Positions 34,664-41,479 of a DNA stretch of 64,000 nucleotides are shown one piece after another; the stretch's first letter is position 1, and each line of letters begins with the position of its first letter. The translations under genes were made by a program, and so were the position numbers. The stretch covers positions 1 through 64,000 of the forward strand of contig CAMDFN010000009.1 in assembly GCA_945897565.1 (NCBI GenBank), written 5' to 3'. The DNA is from Chryseobacterium gleum (GTDB lineage Bacteria; Bacteroidota; Bacteroidia; Flavobacteriales_D; Crocinitomicaceae). The notes beneath the pieces are model-generated. The model saw only the letters and a program-made list of their open reading frames with translations, was not told the DNA's origin and did no database searches.

Positions 34664-36508
34664 ATGTGCGGAATCGTTGCATACATAGGCAAAAATGAGG
34701 CCTATCCAGTGGTCATCAAAGGACTCAAAAGATTAGAATACCGAGGCTACGACAGCGCTGGTATTGCCTTGCATCAAAATGGCGCGCTCTCCATCTACAA
34801 GCGCGTCGGAAAAGTAAGCAATCTCGAAGATTTTGCCGCTACCCAAGACCTCAGCGGTCATGCTGCAATTGGCCACACCCGCTGGGCCACCCACGGAGAA
34901 CCCTCCGATGTCAATTCACATCCGCACACCTCAATGGATGGCAAAATTGCGCTTATCCACAACGGCATTATCGAAAACTACGATGTACTCAAACAAGAAT
35001 TGGTCAAAAACGGCTATATTTTTAAAAGTGCAACCGACACAGAAGTAGTAGTTCATTTAGTAGACTACATTCAAAAGAAAGAAAACGTTTGGTTTGGCGA
35101 GGCTTTGCGCTTGGCATTGAACCACGTTGTAGGGGCTTACGCTATTGTAGCCATGTCTTCTGATTACCCGAATCGTTTGGTTGCTGCGCGCAAGAGCAGC
35201 CCGCTTGTAGTGGGTATCGGCAGCGATGGCGCTTATTATTGTGCCTCTGATGCCACGCCAATTGTAGAGTACACCAAAAAAGTAGTTTACCTCAACGACG
35301 AAGAAGTAGCCGTTATTGACCTAGAAAAAGGCCTCAAAATCTACGACATCGCCGACCAACAAAAAACACCATTTTTCCAAGAACTCGAGCTCGAACTCGA
35401 GGCCCTAGAAAAAGGCGGATACGAGCATTTCATGCTCAAAGAAATCCACGAACAACCGCGTTCTATCCAAGACTGCTTCCGCGGCCGCCTCAATTCAGAT
35501 GAAGCATGGGTTGCCCTCGGTGGTATCCGTGAATACGAGCAAAAAATGATTTCTGCCAACCGCCTCATTATTGTGGCCTGCGGTACTTCATGGCACGCTG
35601 GTTTGGTGGGTGAATACCTCATAGAAGACCTTGCCCGTATCAACGTAGAGGTAGAATATGCAAGTGAATTCCGTTACCGCAATCCTATTCTTAGCGAGAA
35701 CGACGTCGTTATTGCCATTTCTCAATCTGGCGAAACCGCAGACACCCTAGCAGCGCTTGAATTAGCAAAATCTAAGGGAGCCACTATTTTGGGAATTTGC
35801 AATGTGGTTGGTTCTTCTATTGCCCGCATTACCGATGCAGGTTCTTATACGCACGCTGGCCCAGAAATTGGAGTAGCCTCAACCAAAGCCTTTACTGCAC
35901 AAGTAACGGTCCTGACTTTAATGGCACTGTCATTAGCTAAAAAGAAAGGCACTATTTCTGAGTCTAAATTCCGCCAACTTTTGGCTGAGCTCGAAGCCAT
36001 TCCGGACAAAGTAAAACGCGTTCTCGAAACAGATGCTGACATTGAGAAGATCGCAGCTATCTATAAAGATGCGACCAATGCACTTTATCTCGGACGCGGC
36101 AGTTCTTTCCCTGTTGCCCTAGAAGGCGCACTCAAACTCAAAGAAATTTCTTACATCCATGCCGAAGGCTATCCTGCTGCAGAAATGAAGCACGGTCCAA
36201 TTGCCTTGATCGATGAAAACATGCCGATCATTGTCATTGCCACCCATGGAACCTCTTACGAAAAAGTCGTCTCTAACATCCAAGAGGTGAAGGCCCGCAA
36301 AGGAAAAGTCATTGCTATCGTAACCGAAGGCGACGAACAAGTCCGCAACATGGCTGACCACGTCATCGAAATCCCTGAAGTAGACGAATTCTTGGTACCG
36401 CTATTAGCCACCATTCCCCTCCAGCTACTCTCTTACCACATCGCCGTCATGCGCGGTTGTAATGTAGACCAGCCAAGAAATTTGGCAAAAAGTGTTACGG
36501 TGGAGTAA
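34664..36508 (+). CDS. glmS: Glutamine--fructose-6-phosphate aminotransferase (isomerizing)
   Basis: 614 residues. Makes glucosamine-6-phosphate for peptidoglycan and LPS. Cys2 is the N-terminal glutaminase nucleophile ('MCGIVAYIGKNE', then 'RLEYRGYDSAGIA'); two SIS domains follow with 'CGTSWHAG', 'SQSGETADTLAAL', 'GRGSSFPVALEGALKLKEIS' and 'EMKHGPIALID'. It ends with the near-universal 'DQPRNLAKSVTVE'. The final 13 bases, including the stop codon, are the left copy of the direct repeat flanking the 3.2-kb insertion, so integration left the protein unchanged. Confidence 0.97.
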   Translation: MCGIVAYIGKNEAYPVVIKGLKRLEYRGYDSAGIALHQNGALSIYKRVGKVSNLEDFAATQDLSGHAAIGHTRWATHGEPSDVNSHPHTSMDGKIALIHNGIIENYDVLKQELVKNGYIFKSATDTEVVVHLVDYIQKKENVWFGEALRLALNHVVGAYAIVAMSSDYPNRLVAARKSSPLVVGIGSDGAYYCASDATPIVEYTKKVVYLNDEEVAVIDLEKGLKIYDIADQQKTPFFQELELELEALEKGGYEHFMLKEIHEQPRSIQDCFRGRLNSDEAWVALGGIREYEQKMISANRLIIVACGTSWHAGLVGEYLIEDLARINVEVEYASEFRYRNPILSENDVVIAISQSGETADTLAALELAKSKGATILGICNVVGSSIARITDAGSYTHAGPEIGVASTKAFTAQVTVLTLMALSLAKKKGTISESKFRQLLAELEAIPDKVKRVLETDADIEKIAAIYKDATNALYLGRGSSFPVALEGALKLKEISYIHAEGYPAAEMKHGPIALIDENMPIIVIATHGTSYEKVVSNIQEVKARKGKVIAIVTEGDEQVRNMADHVIEIPEVDEFLVPLLATIPLQLLSYHIAVMRGCNVDQPRNLAKSVTVE

Positions 36509-36846
36509 TCTGAACGGGTATTTGGTTGGTCTGTTAGTGTTTTCGATAGTTTCAGATGTTTTCTATGAGGGACGTTTTTGGAAACAGTCCGTTTTACACC
36601 CTCATAAATCAATGGGATTTTAAGGAAAAGATGTAATTCATGAACCTTCTTATCTGTTTGATAGGATAAGGTAATGGACTGAATAAAATGGGTTAGAACT
36701 TCCTTTTTCTGTTTGAATGAAAAGGACTTGTTTTTCGTTAACACCTTAGAAATCTCTAACATTGATTTATACCACTTATCCTTCTGATAATGAAAGGATA
36801 AAAGGTTTTTATTGTCTTCAATTTTTAGGGGTTGGCCGTTGCACAC
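36433..36846 (-). pseudogene. C-terminal remnant of a site-specific (serine-type) recombinase
   Basis: The frame is open from about 36910 leftwards. 'KDKWYKSMLEISKVLTKNKS' and 'FKQKKEVLTHFIQSITLSYQ' followed by a hydrophobic beta strand ('LHLFLKIPLIYEG') look like the end of a large serine recombinase, from the coiled-coil/zinc-ribbon region to the final strand. The catalytic N-terminal domain is missing; the SPFH operon occupies its place. The last ~25 residues are not element sequence: the frame crosses the 36508 junction and reads the antisense of glmS ('STVTLFAKFLGWS'). No start codon is trusted. The assignment is by recognition of the C-terminal pattern, not by a catalytic motif. Confidence 0.55.
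36496..36508. repeat. Left 13-bp direct repeat (attachment site) at glmS stop
   Basis: TACGGTGGAGTAA, the last codons and stop of glmS, repeated perfectly at 39672-39684. The flanking bases differ on both sides, so the repeat is exactly 13 bp. Interpreted as the crossover core of an integrative element. Confidence 0.85.
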
Positions 36847-36914
36847 AGTTTTTCTGTCGGTGTCCGCCGTTATTGTACAGAAGTCGAGGAAGATAGTCGA
36901 ATTAGTTAAAACGC

Positions 36915-36946
36915 TTGTTTTTGTATCAAATTATTGTTTACATTTG
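36915..36946 (+). promoter_or_regulatory. Promoter of the SPFH-RHH pair
   Basis: TTG at 36915-36917, 21 bases, then TACATTTG at 36939-36946: an exact Bacteroidetes TTG-N17-23-TAnnTTTG promoter, 36 bases before the SPFH ATG. Best-formed promoter in the window. Confidence 0.65.
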
Positions 36947-36965
36947 TGATATCAATATGATATCA
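36947..36965. promoter_or_regulatory. Twin-palindrome operator candidate
   Basis: Two copies of the palindrome TGATATCA (36947-36954 and 36958-36965), 11 bases centre to centre, about one helical turn, starting directly after the -7 element. Paired short palindromes spaced one turn apart are the usual target of ribbon-helix-helix dimers, and an RHH gene closes this operon, so autorepression is likely. Confidence 0.55.
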
Positions 36966-36982
36966 TTTAAATATTACTCATT

Positions 36983-37837
36983 ATGAAAACAGAAAAAACT
37001 ATAACACCGTTAAATGGCTATTTGGTTGTCGTTATGCTATTAGTATTAGCAGCGTTAATTCTTTATGGCTTTATCTCTAATAATATGATGTTGGGAGTTG
37101 CATCATTTCTAATATTTGTTCTTTTAACGAAGGGCTTTATTGTAGTAAGTCCGAACAGCTCAAAAGTATTATTGCTTTTCGGAGACTATAAAGGTAGTGT
37201 CAAACAAAGCGGCTTCTTTTGGATCAATCCGCTTTATAATAGCACAAGTTTGTCTTTACGAGCAAGAAACTTTGAGAGCGAAAAAATTAAGGTTAATGAT
37301 AAAATGGGAAACCCAATTATGATTAGCGTTATTTTAGTTTGGAAAGTTAAAGACACATTTAAGGCTACTTTTGAAGTAGATAATTACGAAAACTTTATAA
37401 GAATTCAAACGGATTCAGCAGTCAGGAAACTTGCGGGATCTTTTCCGTATGACCATTTTGAAGATGAGAAAGCAACAGTAACTTTAAGCACTAATTTTGA
37501 TGATGTAAATAAAGCTCTTGAACACGAAGTAACTCAGCGATTAGAAATTGCAGGAATAGAAGTGGTAGAGTCGAGAATAGGATATTTAGCATACGCTCCT
37601 GAAATTGCACACTCAATGTTAAGGAGACAACAAGCGTCTGCTGTTGTTGCAGCCCGTCATAAAATTGTTGAAGGCGCTGTCGGCATGGTTGAAAGTGCTT
37701 TAAAACTTTTAGCAGATAAAGAAATTATTGAATTCGATGAAGATAGAAAAGCCGCAATGGTCAGCAATTTAATGGTTGTCCTTTGTGGTGATAGTGAAAC
37801 GAAACCTGTAATAAATACAGGAACTTTAAATCAATAA
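36983..37837 (+). CDS. SPFH/band 7 domain membrane protein
   Basis: 284 residues. Two hydrophobic stretches at about 12-30 and 34-50, then an SPFH (stomatin/prohibitin/flotillin/HflKC) domain: 'GFIVVSPNSSKVLLLFGDYKG', 'SLRARNFESEKIKVNDKMGN', 'VVESRIGYLAYAPEIAHSML', followed by an Ala-rich helix 'RRQQASAVVAARHKIVEGAVG'. Such proteins form membrane-associated rings or microdomains and often govern membrane proteases. The partner here is a small RHH DNA-binding protein 3 bases downstream. The function of this pair is not known to me; stress or membrane-integrity response is one possibility. Its AT-rich codon use differs from the chromosome around it. Confidence 0.85.
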   Translation: MKTEKTITPLNGYLVVVMLLVLAALILYGFISNNMMLGVASFLIFVLLTKGFIVVSPNSSKVLLLFGDYKGSVKQSGFFWINPLYNSTSLSLRARNFESEKIKVNDKMGNPIMISVILVWKVKDTFKATFEVDNYENFIRIQTDSAVRKLAGSFPYDHFEDEKATVTLSTNFDDVNKALEHEVTQRLEIAGIEVVESRIGYLAYAPEIAHSMLRRQQASAVVAARHKIVEGAVGMVESALKLLADKEIIEFDEDRKAAMVSNLMVVLCGDSETKPVINTGTLNQ

Positions 37838-37840
37838 AGG

Positions 37841-38011
37841 ATGTCCGAAAAAAAGTCATTTGCATTAAGAATAGATTCAGAAACAATGAAAGCCATTGAA
37901 AAATGGGCTGCTGATGAATTTCGTAGTGTCAATGGTCAAATTGAATGGATGCTTAATAACAGTCTTAAAGAAGCAAAAAGAATTAAAGTAAAAACAATCC
38001 AAAAGAAATAG
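37841..38011 (+). CDS. Arc-like ribbon-helix-helix protein
   Basis: 56 residues. 'KKSFALRIDSETMKAIEKWA' supplies the beta strand and first helix, and 'DEFRSVNGQIEWMLNNSLKEA' the second helix, of an Arc/MetJ-type DNA-binding fold, with a basic tail. It starts 3 bases after the SPFH stop, so it is the second gene of a two-gene operon. Inferred role: dimeric repressor of its own promoter through the twin TGATATCA site at 36947-36965. It could instead be an antitoxin-type regulator, but the SPFH partner is not a toxin fold. Confidence 0.8.
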   Translation: MSEKKSFALRIDSETMKAIEKWAADEFRSVNGQIEWMLNNSLKEAKRIKVKTIQKK

Positions 38012-38041
38012 TGTCCGAATATTTTAGGAAAGAAAAAGACT

Positions 38042-38221
38042 TTATCCTACGGAATTTTCGTCAGCGGAAAGTCCGTCCAACGGCTTACCTATAACTATTA
38101 TATCGGCTTGATATTCCCTTCCAAACCTTTGATCTGAACGTTTCTTTTTGGTATATATTGACCACGTATGTTTATGAGTAAATCGATGATTTCGTGGAGT
38201 CTTATATCCCTTATCAATGAG
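38042..38221 (-). pseudogene. 3' part of a small recombinase-like gene split by the cassette
   Basis: On the minus strand from 38221 the frame reads 'LIDKGYKTPRNHRFTHKHTW', then 'SIYTKKKRSDQRFGREYQAD', ending in TAA at 38044-38042. It continues, in frame, the peptide encoded at 39566-39438 once the 1216-bp cassette is removed, giving an unbroken 102-residue protein ('...FKQISDY' + 'LIDKGYKTP...'). The sequence resembles the helix-turn-helix and linker segment of serine recombinases ('LYENQNMTFKQISDYL...GYKTPR'). The residues after 'IIVIG' may not belong to the original protein. The 38012-38315 interval holds no intact gene besides this fragment and the start of the cassette. Confidence 0.6.
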
Positions 38222-38315
38222 TTATGTACAAGAGACTGAAATCACGCTCCGGTAAAGATAAATCGGGAAACCTAAAACCCAACTTCTGCTTAAACTAAAA
38301 AGAAAAAAAAACAAA

Positions 38316-39212
38316 ATGAAATTACTATTAAACGTTATTATCTTTTTCACACTTTTTAATTCTCAAAATAGCCAATCTCAAACAATTGATACTTTAGTTG
38401 AGGTTGGTAATCATAAATTGCATTTCAAGATTGTTAAAGGCAATGGTATTCCTATTCTTTTTGAATCAGGTGCTGGAGATGATGGAACTGTCTGGAATTC
38501 TATCTTGGCCCCAATTGCTGAAATAACAGGTGCAACCTTGATTACGTATGACAGAGCAGGTTTTGGAAAAAGTACAATAAATACTTTAGAAACTGATGAA
38601 TCAAAACATGGAATAATAAATAGTGTTGAAGATTTAGAAGCAGGACTTAAAATATTGGGATATGACAAAGAAATTATCCTAGTTTCTCATTCCTATGGTG
38701 GACATTTATCTACATTATATTCGGTAAGACATCCTGATCTTGTAAAATCTATTGTATTAATCGATGTTACTCACAATTTTTATTACATGAACGATTATTT
38801 TGAAAAAGAATCAAAGAAGGAAGAAAAGCATTTACCGGAAATGAAAAAAAATAATCTTGGATTTTATTATTTGGCTTTAAATTTTTCTGAAACAAGCAAC
38901 ATAATGGGCAAACTTACTATTCCTCAAAATATTCCTGTAGTAGATTTTGTTAATGAGATACATTTCTTTAAAGAAAAGGACAAGGTTGAATATTGGAAGG
39001 AATGCCATAAGAAATTTGTTGAAAGTCATCCAAATAGTATTGGAATAACAGCAAGCGGATGTCATCATTATATATGGCTTGACAATCCAAATTTAATAAT
39101 TACTACTGTTTCAAATAGTTACGCTGAAACTTTAGAAGAGAAACAAAAAAATGAAGTTTATCAAAGAGCATTAAATTATGCGATAGCATCTTTAAATAAA
39201 GTTGACAAGTAA
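38316..39212 (+). CDS. Alpha/beta hydrolase, exported, cassette-borne
   Basis: 298 residues with a signal-peptide-like N-terminus ('LLLNVIIFFTLFNSQNSQSQ'). Alpha/beta-hydrolase core: 'GIPILFESGAGDDGTVWNSI' (oxyanion region), 'LITYDRAGFGKS', nucleophile elbow 'LVSHSYGGHL' with Ser126 (S-x-S-x-G rather than G-x-S-x-G), and the catalytic-His candidate in 'SGCHHYIWLDNP' (His250/251). Substrate unknown. It is the sole gene of the cassette; the 94 bases before its ATG contain no exact TAnnTTTG motif, as expected for cassette genes that borrow promoters. Strongly AT-biased codons distinguish it from its neighbours. Confidence 0.85.
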   Translation: MKLLLNVIIFFTLFNSQNSQSQTIDTLVEVGNHKLHFKIVKGNGIPILFESGAGDDGTVWNSILAPIAEITGATLITYDRAGFGKSTINTLETDESKHGIINSVEDLEAGLKILGYDKEIILVSHSYGGHLSTLYSVRHPDLVKSIVLIDVTHNFYYMNDYFEKESKKEEKHLPEMKKNNLGFYYLALNFSETSNIMGKLTIPQNIPVVDFVNEIHFFKEKDKVEYWKECHKKFVESHPNSIGITASGCHHYIWLDNPNLIITTVSNSYAETLEEKQKNEVYQRALNYAIASLNKVDK

Positions 39213-39310
39213 CATAGAAATGAAAAACGAAATTCTCGGATATCTAAAAATTGAATTCCAGAGACAAACATATACGTCTTGCTTTGTAGGTTACTTCCGA
39301 AGTCTCCTGT

Positions 39311-39437
39311 ACATAACACACGCTAGGCAAAAAAGCCGAGATTTTGGTAACGAAAAATAATTAATTGAAAAACTTAAGATTTTGGATCGCAAATAAACCT
39401 AATTTTAAAATCGGCTTCTTCGCCTAGCGCGAAACCG
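39311..39437 (+). other. attC-like recombination site
   Basis: ACATAAC (39311-39317, R''), CGCTAGGC (39321-39328, L''), AAGCCGAGATTTT (39333-39345), a 61-base loop, AAAATCGGCTT (39407-39417), GCCTAGCG (39422-39429, L') and terminal G 39437, which with the cassette's leading TTATGT forms R'. The arms pair perfectly except for extra-helical bases (a spare G/A near 39340 and a few loop-side mismatches), the type of asymmetry that marks the recombined strand in attC. Bases 39301-39310 also pair with the cassette's start (AGTCTC/GAGACT), lengthening the stem. Confidence 0.7.
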
Positions 39438-39566
39438 ATAATCACTTATCTGTTTGAAGGTCATGTTCTGATTTTCGTATAAATCAGATATAATGGAGAA
39501 TAATTCCATCTGATAATCACTGTAGTGTGATAACCACAAGTTGGAAGAGGTGATCCTTACCTCCAT
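39438..39566 (-). pseudogene. 5' part of the small recombinase-like gene split by the cassette
   Basis: From ATG 39566 the minus strand reads 'MEVRITSSNLWLSHYSDYQM', then 'ELFSIISDLYENQNMTFKQI', 'SDY', and is then cut at 39438 by the cassette. Without the join the frame runs on into the attC stem ('RFRARRRSRF') and stops. An upstream TTG at 39656 could start a longer form. Similar small helical proteins resembling the middle of serine recombinases accompany recombinase genes in Bacteroidetes. Lying at the right end of the element in the same orientation as the left-end remnant, it fits an original small gene followed by a recombinase gene. Confidence 0.6.
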
Positions 39567-39671
39567 GGTTAAAAAATAAGATCGATTATTATTTTTACCT
39601 TTGTTAGAAGTAATATTATTACCTATGACAGTATCAGTACACGGAGTATTAACCAATGTAGAGTTTTCCTC

Positions 39672-39684
39672 TACGGTGGAGTAA
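39672..39684. repeat. Right 13-bp direct repeat of the glmS element
   Basis: TACGGTGGAGTAA, identical to 36496-36508. What follows (ATTTATTTATAC) is the presumed original sequence downstream of glmS. Confidence 0.85.
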
Positions 39685-39705
39685 ATTTATTTATACTTCT
39701 GCCGG

Positions 39706-39939
39706 CTATATTGCATCTAGAATACGAGCCAGCTCCCAATCTTTTTCGGTGACTACATTGCCTGCATCGTGCGTAGTCAACCGTACCTCAACTTTATTGT
39801 AAACGTTGGTCCATTCCGGATGATGGTTCAGTTTTTCAATCTCAATGCTTGCCTTTTGCATCCATTCCATTGCTTTTAGGAAACTCGAAAATTCGAAGGT
39901 TTTATGCAATGCGTTGTTGTGTTCGGTCCAGTTGTGCAT
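39706..39939 (-). CDS. phhB: Pterin-4a-carbinolamine dehydratase
   Basis: 77 residues, slightly shorter than most members. The signature is visible: 'IEKLNHHPEWTNVYNKVEVRLTTHD' splits into the His-His-Pro motif, the aromatic, and the later His, ending in 'DWELA'. Dehydrates 4a-hydroxytetrahydrobiopterin, recycling the cofactor of aromatic amino-acid hydroxylases; no hydroxylase gene is present here. It follows the 39959-41479 gene on the same strand (19-base gap) and once lay directly downstream, convergent, of glmS before the element inserted. Confidence 0.92.
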   Translation of the reverse strand: MHNWTEHNNALHKTFEFSSFLKAMEWMQKASIEIEKLNHHPEWTNVYNKVEVRLTTHDAGNVVTEKDWELARILDAI

Positions 39940-39958
39940 GGGCTAGGTTCGGATAGGC

Positions 39959-41479
39959 TTACTCGAAAGACACCTTATTCAAAAAGAGTACAGTACGCTT
40001 GCGTTTGACGTCGTCATCGACTTTATTTTTGATGGACTGTACGCCGTAAGACAAGAAGTATTTGTCGTACCAGAAGTAGATGTTGCTGTAGGTTCCCTTC
40101 ACTTTATCGTTTTCGTTGGTGGTGTTGATCGGGTTAGAGGTTTTTTCACTAAGGATTTCGCCAGAAAAAGAAAACGACTTAGAGTAGATATTGCGGCCAT
40201 CGGCATATACCAATTGAATGCTATTTTGCTCTTTTGCTGCAATGCGAATAAAGGACTTCGCCACCATAGGTTTGTACCACAAGTACATTTTGAAAACTTG
40301 GCTCCAGATGAGTTCTCCTTGTGCATTGAATTTGGCAATCATGGCGTGGGTATATTGGTAACCATCAAAAACTTGAACAGTTGTGGTAGTTGCTTTGCCG
40401 TTGACGTAGGTTGTGCGGGTTTCAGTTCTGTACGTTGGGTAATAGGCCTCGGTGATGAGTAAAAAATCGTTGTCAACAGCAATGAGGTCGTGCATGACAA
40501 GGAGTTGATTTGCTTGAAGTTCTTTGCCTCTTTTAGCTTTGCGCTCTTTTTTGCTTTCGATGCGTTGTTGGCTTCTTTCCGGAAGAAAATCAAGGTAGTT
40601 AGGGATGTCTAAAAAATTGTAGGTATTGATGTTAGCGATGTTTCCGTCAGTGGAACTGGCAAAATAAATACCGTTGTTTGGGCCAAGTACTGTACTTCCG
40701 TAGGTACCGGCAATGGCAATTTCATTGGCGCCAACCGCACCCACTGTAATGGATTTAATAATTTTTTCGCCGCCTTCATCGATCATTTGCGGTGCCGACA
40801 TTTTACCGTCCAGATCTATGGATAATAAATAGGCAAACGAAACCATTCTGGATTTAATCACCCTAATTGAAAGATAAAATTTATTGGCGTCTTCTAAATA
40901 CTGCAGATTGATGGGTGCAGTACGGCGTTGTTTGAACCCCTCTACAAGAATTGGTGTTGCTGTAGCGGTTTGGGTTTCTAAATCAAAATAAAGAAATGCC
41001 GCACCATTTTTGCCCTGTCCGATTGCGGCAGCTTTGTTTCCTACTACATAAAAAGAATGGATATTGTAAAAACTGGTTTTGCCATCGAGCTCGATGTCTA
41101 AGCGTTTTGTTGTTTTGTTTTTGACATCGAATTGATAGATGTAAATTGGCAAATTGCGTTTATACGCCACATGATAAATGCTTTCTTCTCCTTCGAAAGT
41201 GGCAACAATTGGGTGCGTTGGCTCGAAGTCAATAGGATCTGTTTCGTATAATTCAAGATCGGAATTGTAGACATCGTGATGTAAGTAATAGTTACTTCTT
41301 AAGCCACCATCTTTGCTCAGGCTTCTTACCACAACGCCGTATTGGCCCATTGTATATACTTGTTCATCATAACGGCCGTCTTTGAGGTCAATTTCGACGC
41401 GTTTTTCGGTGGTTTTGAGTTGTTGCCCGAAAATAAAAGTAGTTGCTAAGACAAAAGAGAGTACAAATATTGCTTTCAT
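39959..41479 (-). CDS. Exported protein of unknown function
   Basis: 506 residues with a clear signal peptide ('AIFVLSFVLATTFIFGQQ'). The rest is beta-rich and irregularly repetitive, with blocks such as 'AYLLSIDLDGKMSAPQMI' and 'HAMIAKFNAQGELIWSQVF' that resemble beta-propeller blades. A basic stretch 'SKKERKAKRGKEL' sits near 320. No T9SS sorting domain, lipobox or enzyme motif was found, so it is probably periplasmic. First gene of a two-gene run with the pterin dehydratase. Confidence 0.75.
   Translation of the reverse strand: MKAIFVLSFVLATTFIFGQQLKTTEKRVEIDLKDGRYDEQVYTMGQYGVVVRSLSKDGGLRSNYYLHHDVYNSDLELYETDPIDFEPTHPIVATFEGEESIYHVAYKRNLPIYIYQFDVKNKTTKRLDIELDGKTSFYNIHSFYVVGNKAAAIGQGKNGAAFLYFDLETQTATATPILVEGFKQRRTAPINLQYLEDANKFYLSIRVIKSRMVSFAYLLSIDLDGKMSAPQMIDEGGEKIIKSITVGAVGANEIAIAGTYGSTVLGPNNGIYFASSTDGNIANINTYNFLDIPNYLDFLPERSQQRIESKKERKAKRGKELQANQLLVMHDLIAVDNDFLLITEAYYPTYRTETRTTYVNGKATTTTVQVFDGYQYTHAMIAKFNAQGELIWSQVFKMYLWYKPMVAKSFIRIAAKEQNSIQLVYADGRNIYSKSFSFSGEILSEKTSNPINTTNENDKVKGTYSNIYFWYDKYFLSYGVQSIKNKVDDDVKRKRTVLFLNKVSFE

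Follow-up and report, generated by a model that had tools for sequence, protein, structure and literature searches.

A gene cassette inserted outside any array in Chryseobacterium gleum and a candidate integron lineage of Bacteroidia with an I2-less recombinase

Within positions 1 to 64,000 of contig CAMDFN010000009.1 of a Chryseobacterium gleum assembly (GCA_945897565.1), hereafter referred to as the window, a cassette consisting of an alpha/beta hydrolase gene and an attC site is placed inside an open reading frame (ORF) of the minus strand. We consider it likely that this one-gene cassette landed off-array at a G^AT target (carets mark crossover positions) and was inserted in trans by an integron of a second kind, located on another contig of the same genome, whose recombinase lacks the I2 region of the integron integrase IntI. 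With somewhat less confidence, the data favor a class-wide second integron lineage in Bacteroidia, in which a Xer-like recombinase devoid of I2 takes up folded attC cassettes at an attI site located behind its own gene, representing either a state preceding the IntI domain or an independent invention, and whose cassettes also land off-array.

Once 38222-39437 is excised, joining 38221 to 39438, the minus-strand frame is open again, and the target sequence restored in this way is CAATGAG^ATAATCAC. Searched with the joined ORF, three of 60 genomes gave matches, namely the genome itself, G013 (75% identity) and G012 (37%). In G013, a genome of the same genus, the host gene is uninterrupted and the corresponding place reads CTCAATGAG^ATGATCAC, with both flanks of the window aligning up to CAATGAG^AT. 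Consequently, the boundary of the cassette is set by a real empty site. In comparison with this homologue, the junctions of the cassette read G^TT...CCG^AT and the insertion is exact, having no target duplication and leaving the single-base G ambiguity that is usual for a G^TT crossover. The GAT of the target fits the GNT rule for secondary sites that is cited for the integron integrase (PMC3518468). All three marks of an off-array (attG-type) insertion, i.e., an attC cassette outside an array, a G^AT target and an empty site in a relative, are found here. A first-pass annotation of this DNA had claimed the restored reading frame and a G^ATAA target obeying the secondary-site rule and had proposed to search relatives for the empty site; both claims hold, and the search found that site in G013. 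The copies of the host ORF in G012 and G013 lie near contig starts.

The same annotation had described an attC-like inverted repeat becoming exact only when the cassette ends are joined, which proved correct and longer than supposed: ACATAAC (39311-39317) is the exact complement of GTTATGT (38221-38227), and the match extends outward to 16 of 17 bases. The joined ends fold as a bottom-strand hairpin, as its folding check had anticipated. In an attC scan, the joined site scored 18.0 with 7/7 R boxes. Its two spacers measure 3 and 7 nt, and attC sites adjacent to the phylum's IntI genes show this asymmetry as well; at a threshold of 16 the scan returned 25 matches at 21 loci, 6 being expected from shuffles. 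Using the circle junction as BLASTN query, matches were obtained in 26 of the 86 genus genomes (own included). Among the ten best of them outside the window, every match begins at query base 19 or 20 and eight stop at 144-148, the limits of the match being those of the attC. A genus covariance model (R1) was built from the aligned attC sites of ten relatives, excluding the window site. Run on the window, it matched 39311-39443 with 124.8 bits (E 8.4e-28), a positive outcome for the covariance-model check that had been proposed, and R1 sites were detected in 36 of the 86 genomes, again including the own one. Within the R1 alignment, 81.3% of the cells pair according to the structure versus 24.7-40.4% when slid. 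Alignments of attC sites from IntI integrons (A2, A3) had mixed stem registers and no model was made from them. At one locus (L215 in our numbering, genome G450), small same-strand ORFs with repeated attC sites stand between ordinary chromosomal genes. The attC sites of G475 (L218:8633-8765, minus) and G249 (L220:8238-8370, minus) are followed by G^TGTGTG and G^TGAGCA, not by GTT, and are other candidates for off-array or last cassettes.

A recombinase is encoded in the same genome on contig C46, where a 279-amino-acid (aa) tyrosine recombinase is followed by an attI-like site, a ParD/ParE-like cassette (our own label), an attC (31.6 bits, E 2.3e-4 with R1) and the start of a further cassette. 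In total, R1 gave 53 matches on 43 loci, and all 15 of those on recombinase-bearing loci are downstream of the gene on the same strand. Cassette starts, fixed by the attI or the preceding attC, were compared with the R'' side of the next attC, 37 of the 53 matches being used. A cassette's own ends pair at 6-7 of 7 positions beyond GTT in 18 of 26 cases, compared with 12 of 650 swapped pairs (0 of 10,000 permutations); the ends of all seven attI-first cassettes pair, and those of the window cassette do so at 7 of 7 positions. This pair-by-pair change of both cassette ends is the best sign, at the level of sequence, that the folded hairpin would matter. A defining trait of integrons, namely cassettes that terminate in attC hairpins whose R boxes are complementary, is thereby present, and GTT follows the attC in 42 of the 46 R1 matches examined (of 53). 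Furthermore, recombinase and attC co-occur, with R1 sites in 18 of 25 genomes containing the recombinase (a list compiled by hand) versus 18 of 61 without it (p 3.4e-4). A strict search for a closed first cassette succeeded at 9 of 37 loci versus 3 of 444 controls; many of the other 28 loci are short-flanked.

The genus recombinases have in common, behind the stop codon, a hairpin region whose end reads TATAAGTAAG^TT or a close variant; beyond this point the sequences diverge. The crossover motif is positioned 94-97 or 106 nt past the last codon in 22 of 28 genus copies, and a loose form of it 85-135 nt past the last codon in 22 of 25 distinct class flanks and in both plasmid flanks; random control windows contained the motif in 92 of 960 cases. 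Over 48 flanks the distance amounts to 93-110 nt in 45, and since 21 of these, all from the genus, had been chosen for having an attI-like site, the class and plasmid counts are the fair figures. Six lower-scoring genus recombinases outside these 48 flanks (L241, L297, L301, L302, L304, L305) have no convincing attI-like site, the sequence of L241 spanning only 50 nt there and the motif of L297 being judged false. An attI with a G^TT crossover beside the recombinase gene, as expected of an integron, is therefore present as sequence; it lies 3' of the gene, and gene and cassettes share one direction. Different cassettes occur behind the same attI-like site, and two complete Chryseobacterium plasmids match each other up to AACAAG^TT and then continue with different sequences. 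One of these two plasmids carries a 176-base unit with an attC-like hairpin in four copies (99-100% identical), 2-3 kb apart. The Bacteroidetes promoter motif TAnnTTWG, a candidate for a promoter reading into the cassettes, occurs no more than 45 nt from the stop in 26 of the 48 flanks (the 21 preselected ones included), versus 36 of 960 control windows. Four contigs (L295, L299, L327, L325) stop 98-129 nt behind the recombinase, near the attI-like crossover, which gives the impression that assembly was interrupted there by variable cassettes or by repeats. On a plasmid of Chryseobacterium sp. SNU WT5 (L356:8835-16834), an IS110-family transposase and a group II intron reverse transcriptase are found among the cassette-like genes behind the recombinase.

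The C46 enzyme scores 220.2 bits with NF040815 (cut-off 220) and 210.7 bits with the IntI model TIGR02249 (cut-off 265); three recombinases reach the former cut-off (220.2, 223.9 and 220.9 bits). The IntI-specific region, covering 42 alignment columns, is absent in 27 of 27 recombinases and present in at least four of five IntI, and the R, K, HxxR, H, and Y positions are kept in these 27 I2-less proteins. Nearest by sequence among solved structures are XerA-like, IntI4 (in two pieces), and XerD; an AlphaFold model of the recombinase had a mean predicted local distance difference test score of 55 and was not used. In a tree of 51 rows, for which 26 of 52 recombinases and 18 of 53 IntI were retained and which has no archaeal XerA, the C46-type recombinases form their own clade (100/98) apart from IntI (100/98); the only Xer row of this tree sits on a branch of 3.3 and does not place the root. 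C46-type recombinases (E<=1e-90) were detected in 72 of 395 Bacteroidia genomes and 44 of 196 genera. In a protein search with the recombinase at least 8,000 candidates pass E 0.001, and two named relatives belong to the Crocinitomicaceae. Among the relatives of one protein encoded in the window, 90% carry the label Bacteroidota, 71% Flavobacteriia and 62% Crocinitomicaceae. Many class-wide recombinases (L312-L335) comprise 345-445 aa, with an N-terminal extension that is absent in the 279-aa form.

Based on these data, the following sequence of events can be proposed. Recombination between its ends would release the cassette as a circle, and the bottom strand of the cassette would fold into the attC hairpin, which we infer because both R boxes vary together among cassettes. 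As a partner for this hairpin, the recombinase would mostly use attI and only seldom a genomic site of the GNT type, and one such rare event, occurring in trans, would have placed the hydrolase cassette at the G^AT of the host gene.

The cargo of the cassette (Table 1) was predicted to be an AT-rich hydrolase gene, which is confirmed by a G+C content of 30.8% in the cassette versus 44.0% in the window and by its domain match. The hydrolase has 880 homologues and 69 loci of relatives in named genomes, and is present in only one of 81 genus genomes, the own one (E<=1e-30). In the loci of eight relatives searched, no GTTATGT/ACATAAC pair was found within 1.6 kb of the hydrolase gene, so the cassette has not been traced to an array.

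The prediction of a solitary off-array cassette stands with regard to the base-defined site outside an array, but not with regard to its solitude, as a second cassette, carrying SPFH/Band-7 and Arc-like genes, occupies the same place. Window positions 36830-38103 match positions 1279-2553 of locus L289 (genome G787) with 87% identity; this counterpart comes first among the cassettes at an attI-like site and includes an attC. With the SPFH/Arc module being a second cassette, two insertions have taken place here and not one, which supports cassette traffic at this locus. Both cassettes stand in one ORF, in opposite orientations and with 127 host bases between them. To the left of the second cassette lies a minus-strand ORF (36433-36829) that, judged by eye only, looks like a serine recombinase tail and might be a continuation of the interrupted host gene.

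Table 1. Features of the cassette locus in window coordinates
Feature	Position	Strand	Basis or remark
Inserted cassette, linear form	38222..39437	+	1,216 bases; empty site in G013 and joined flanks open on minus strand
Left junction and cassette start, G^TTATGTACAAGAGACT	38221..38237	+	16/17 bases complementary to 39301-39317
Inner partner of cassette start, holding R''	39301..39317	+	7/7 in end-pairing test
attC, linear form, R'' (ACATAAC) through the G preceding the crossover	39311..39437	+	R' restored from 38222 on joining; model R1
Cargo gene, alpha/beta hydrolase, 298 aa	38316..39212	+	ORF; Abhydrolase_1 E 5.7e-14
Upstream piece of interrupted ORF	39438..39656	-	Joined frame and ORF match to G013
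Downstream piece of interrupted ORF	38042..38221	-	Host sequence is 38095-38221; last codons below 38095 in second cassette
Second cassette (SPFH/Band-7 and Arc-like genes)	36830..38094	-	Start G^TTATAGG at 38095/38094; end is the R'' place; attC missing
SPFH/Band-7 protein gene, second cassette	36983..37837	+	Band_7 E 5.9e-24
Arc-like small protein gene, second cassette	37841..38011	+	Arc 18.5 bits, below cut-off 20.4

Several points weigh against insertion by the C46-type system. C46 is an unplaced 5.9-kb contig of a draft assembly, its attC is distant from that of the window, and catalysis by its recombinase is what we infer from sequence comparison. The I2 region missing from this enzyme is held necessary for attC use (PMC7790495). 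The R1 alignment on its own has no significant co-variation, because column shuffles often reach the observed values (pairing in 101 and covariation score in 87 of 500). Two results speak against the cassette observation itself: BLAST within the own genome found no second copy of the window attC, and an Rfam scan of 36300-40000 returned no attC and two chance-level matches only. Eight of the 26 cassette-end pairs match poorly, probably because unmodelled attC sites lie between. Finally, R1 sites exist in 18 of the 61 recombinase-free genomes and are lacking, at the threshold applied, in 7 of the 25 with recombinase, these genomes being drafts.

A canonical IntI, formerly present or plasmid-borne, could instead have inserted the cassette, the I2-less recombinase being merely a neighbor of cassettes. 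Above the curated cut-off, IntI genes are frequent among the phylum's other classes (93 of 345 genomes in the phylum sample). An IntI also occurs in one of 395 Bacteroidia genomes, there with attC boxes ACATAAC/GTTATGC. Yet none of the 86 genus genomes contains one above cut-off, although the attC family is genus-wide and is found behind an I2-less recombinase whose attI-like site keeps a constant distance, and we regard this explanation as unlikely. The earlier statement that no intI is nearby, the integrase acting in trans or being lost, is upheld as to the missing intI; the C46 recombinase, with its attI-like site and cassettes, offers a concrete candidate for action in trans that is not a canonical IntI. 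Even less probable is a transfer of cassettes by the housekeeping XerC/XerD with the C46-type gene as passenger. Integrase-model matches on contigs C26 and C2 look like the genome's own Xer genes (our label), and the XerA-like model gives the C46 enzyme a score no lower than the integron model does; the attI-like sites, however, stand behind the C46-type gene, which co-occurs with attC and belongs to a separate and well-supported clade. There is likewise very little to be said for the window representing the remnant of a former array. Such an origin would agree with the second cassette 127 bases away and with the recombinase-free multi-cassette clusters of the genus (L215), but the two cassettes point in opposite directions, the host-gene sequence between them aligns to the empty site of G013, and no attI-like site was seen at the window locus.

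Compared with known systems, the C46-type system resembles integrons (IntI; TIGR02249/PRK15417) in the tyrosine recombinase, the adjacent attI-like site with G^TT crossover and the same-strand cassettes, whose attC hairpins have R boxes pairing with the cassette's own start. It differs in an enzyme devoid of the IntI-specific region and below the TIGR02249 cut-off, and in an attI located behind the 3' end of a recombinase gene that is co-directional with the cassettes. By anatomy, the cassette would work like an integron cassette, and by the tested feature of the enzyme, its source appears not to be a canonical IntI integron; canonical integrases carry an IntI-specific additional domain (PMC9668308). 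XerA-like proteins (NF040815, named "site-specific tyrosine recombinase/integron integrase" by NCBI) share fold family and size (279 aa) and include the C46 enzyme just above the cut-off, whereas the C46 type has an attI-like site with cassettes behind it and its own clade, in a tree without archaeal XerA. Loot et al. (2024) reportedly described attG insertions and integrase-lacking single attC sites. The latter correspond to the term SALIN, which occurs in PMC9024848, and the window cassette is similar in standing off-array at a GNT-type site; it is unlike them in that a relative provides a base-exact empty site and that the likely enzyme is not IntI.

Integrons are commonly searched for via their IntI. 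If the proposed lineage is true, a cassette system common in Bacteroidia has gone uncounted, and Bacteroidia likely run integrons in a second way. The Bacteroidetes have been reported as almost integron-free, with first an In0 only and then one complete integron in Salinibacter (PMC9024848). In the open-licence PMC literature (preprints being outside this scope), no reports of integrons with an I2-less recombinase were found. The I2 helix is regarded as the innovation through which integrases came to use single-stranded attC, and missing intermediates are named as an obstacle (PMC7790495). An I2-less enzyme beside attI- and attC-type sites would, if read correctly, make this question testable, and the window contributes a base-exact natural example of insertion off-array.

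A fragment of an I2-less recombinase of the C46 type (49% identity) was also observed on the Aeromonas veronii plasmid NZ_CP083462 (L358:5001-6763), where 78 nt past its last codon GGGAG^TTAGCGG is followed by blaVEB-3. The veb1 cassette has been described to start with GTTAGCG and to contain a 133-bp attC poorly used by the class 1 integrase (PMC3518468). In view of this arrangement and these features, the blaVEB-3 cassette may derive from Bacteroidia integrons.
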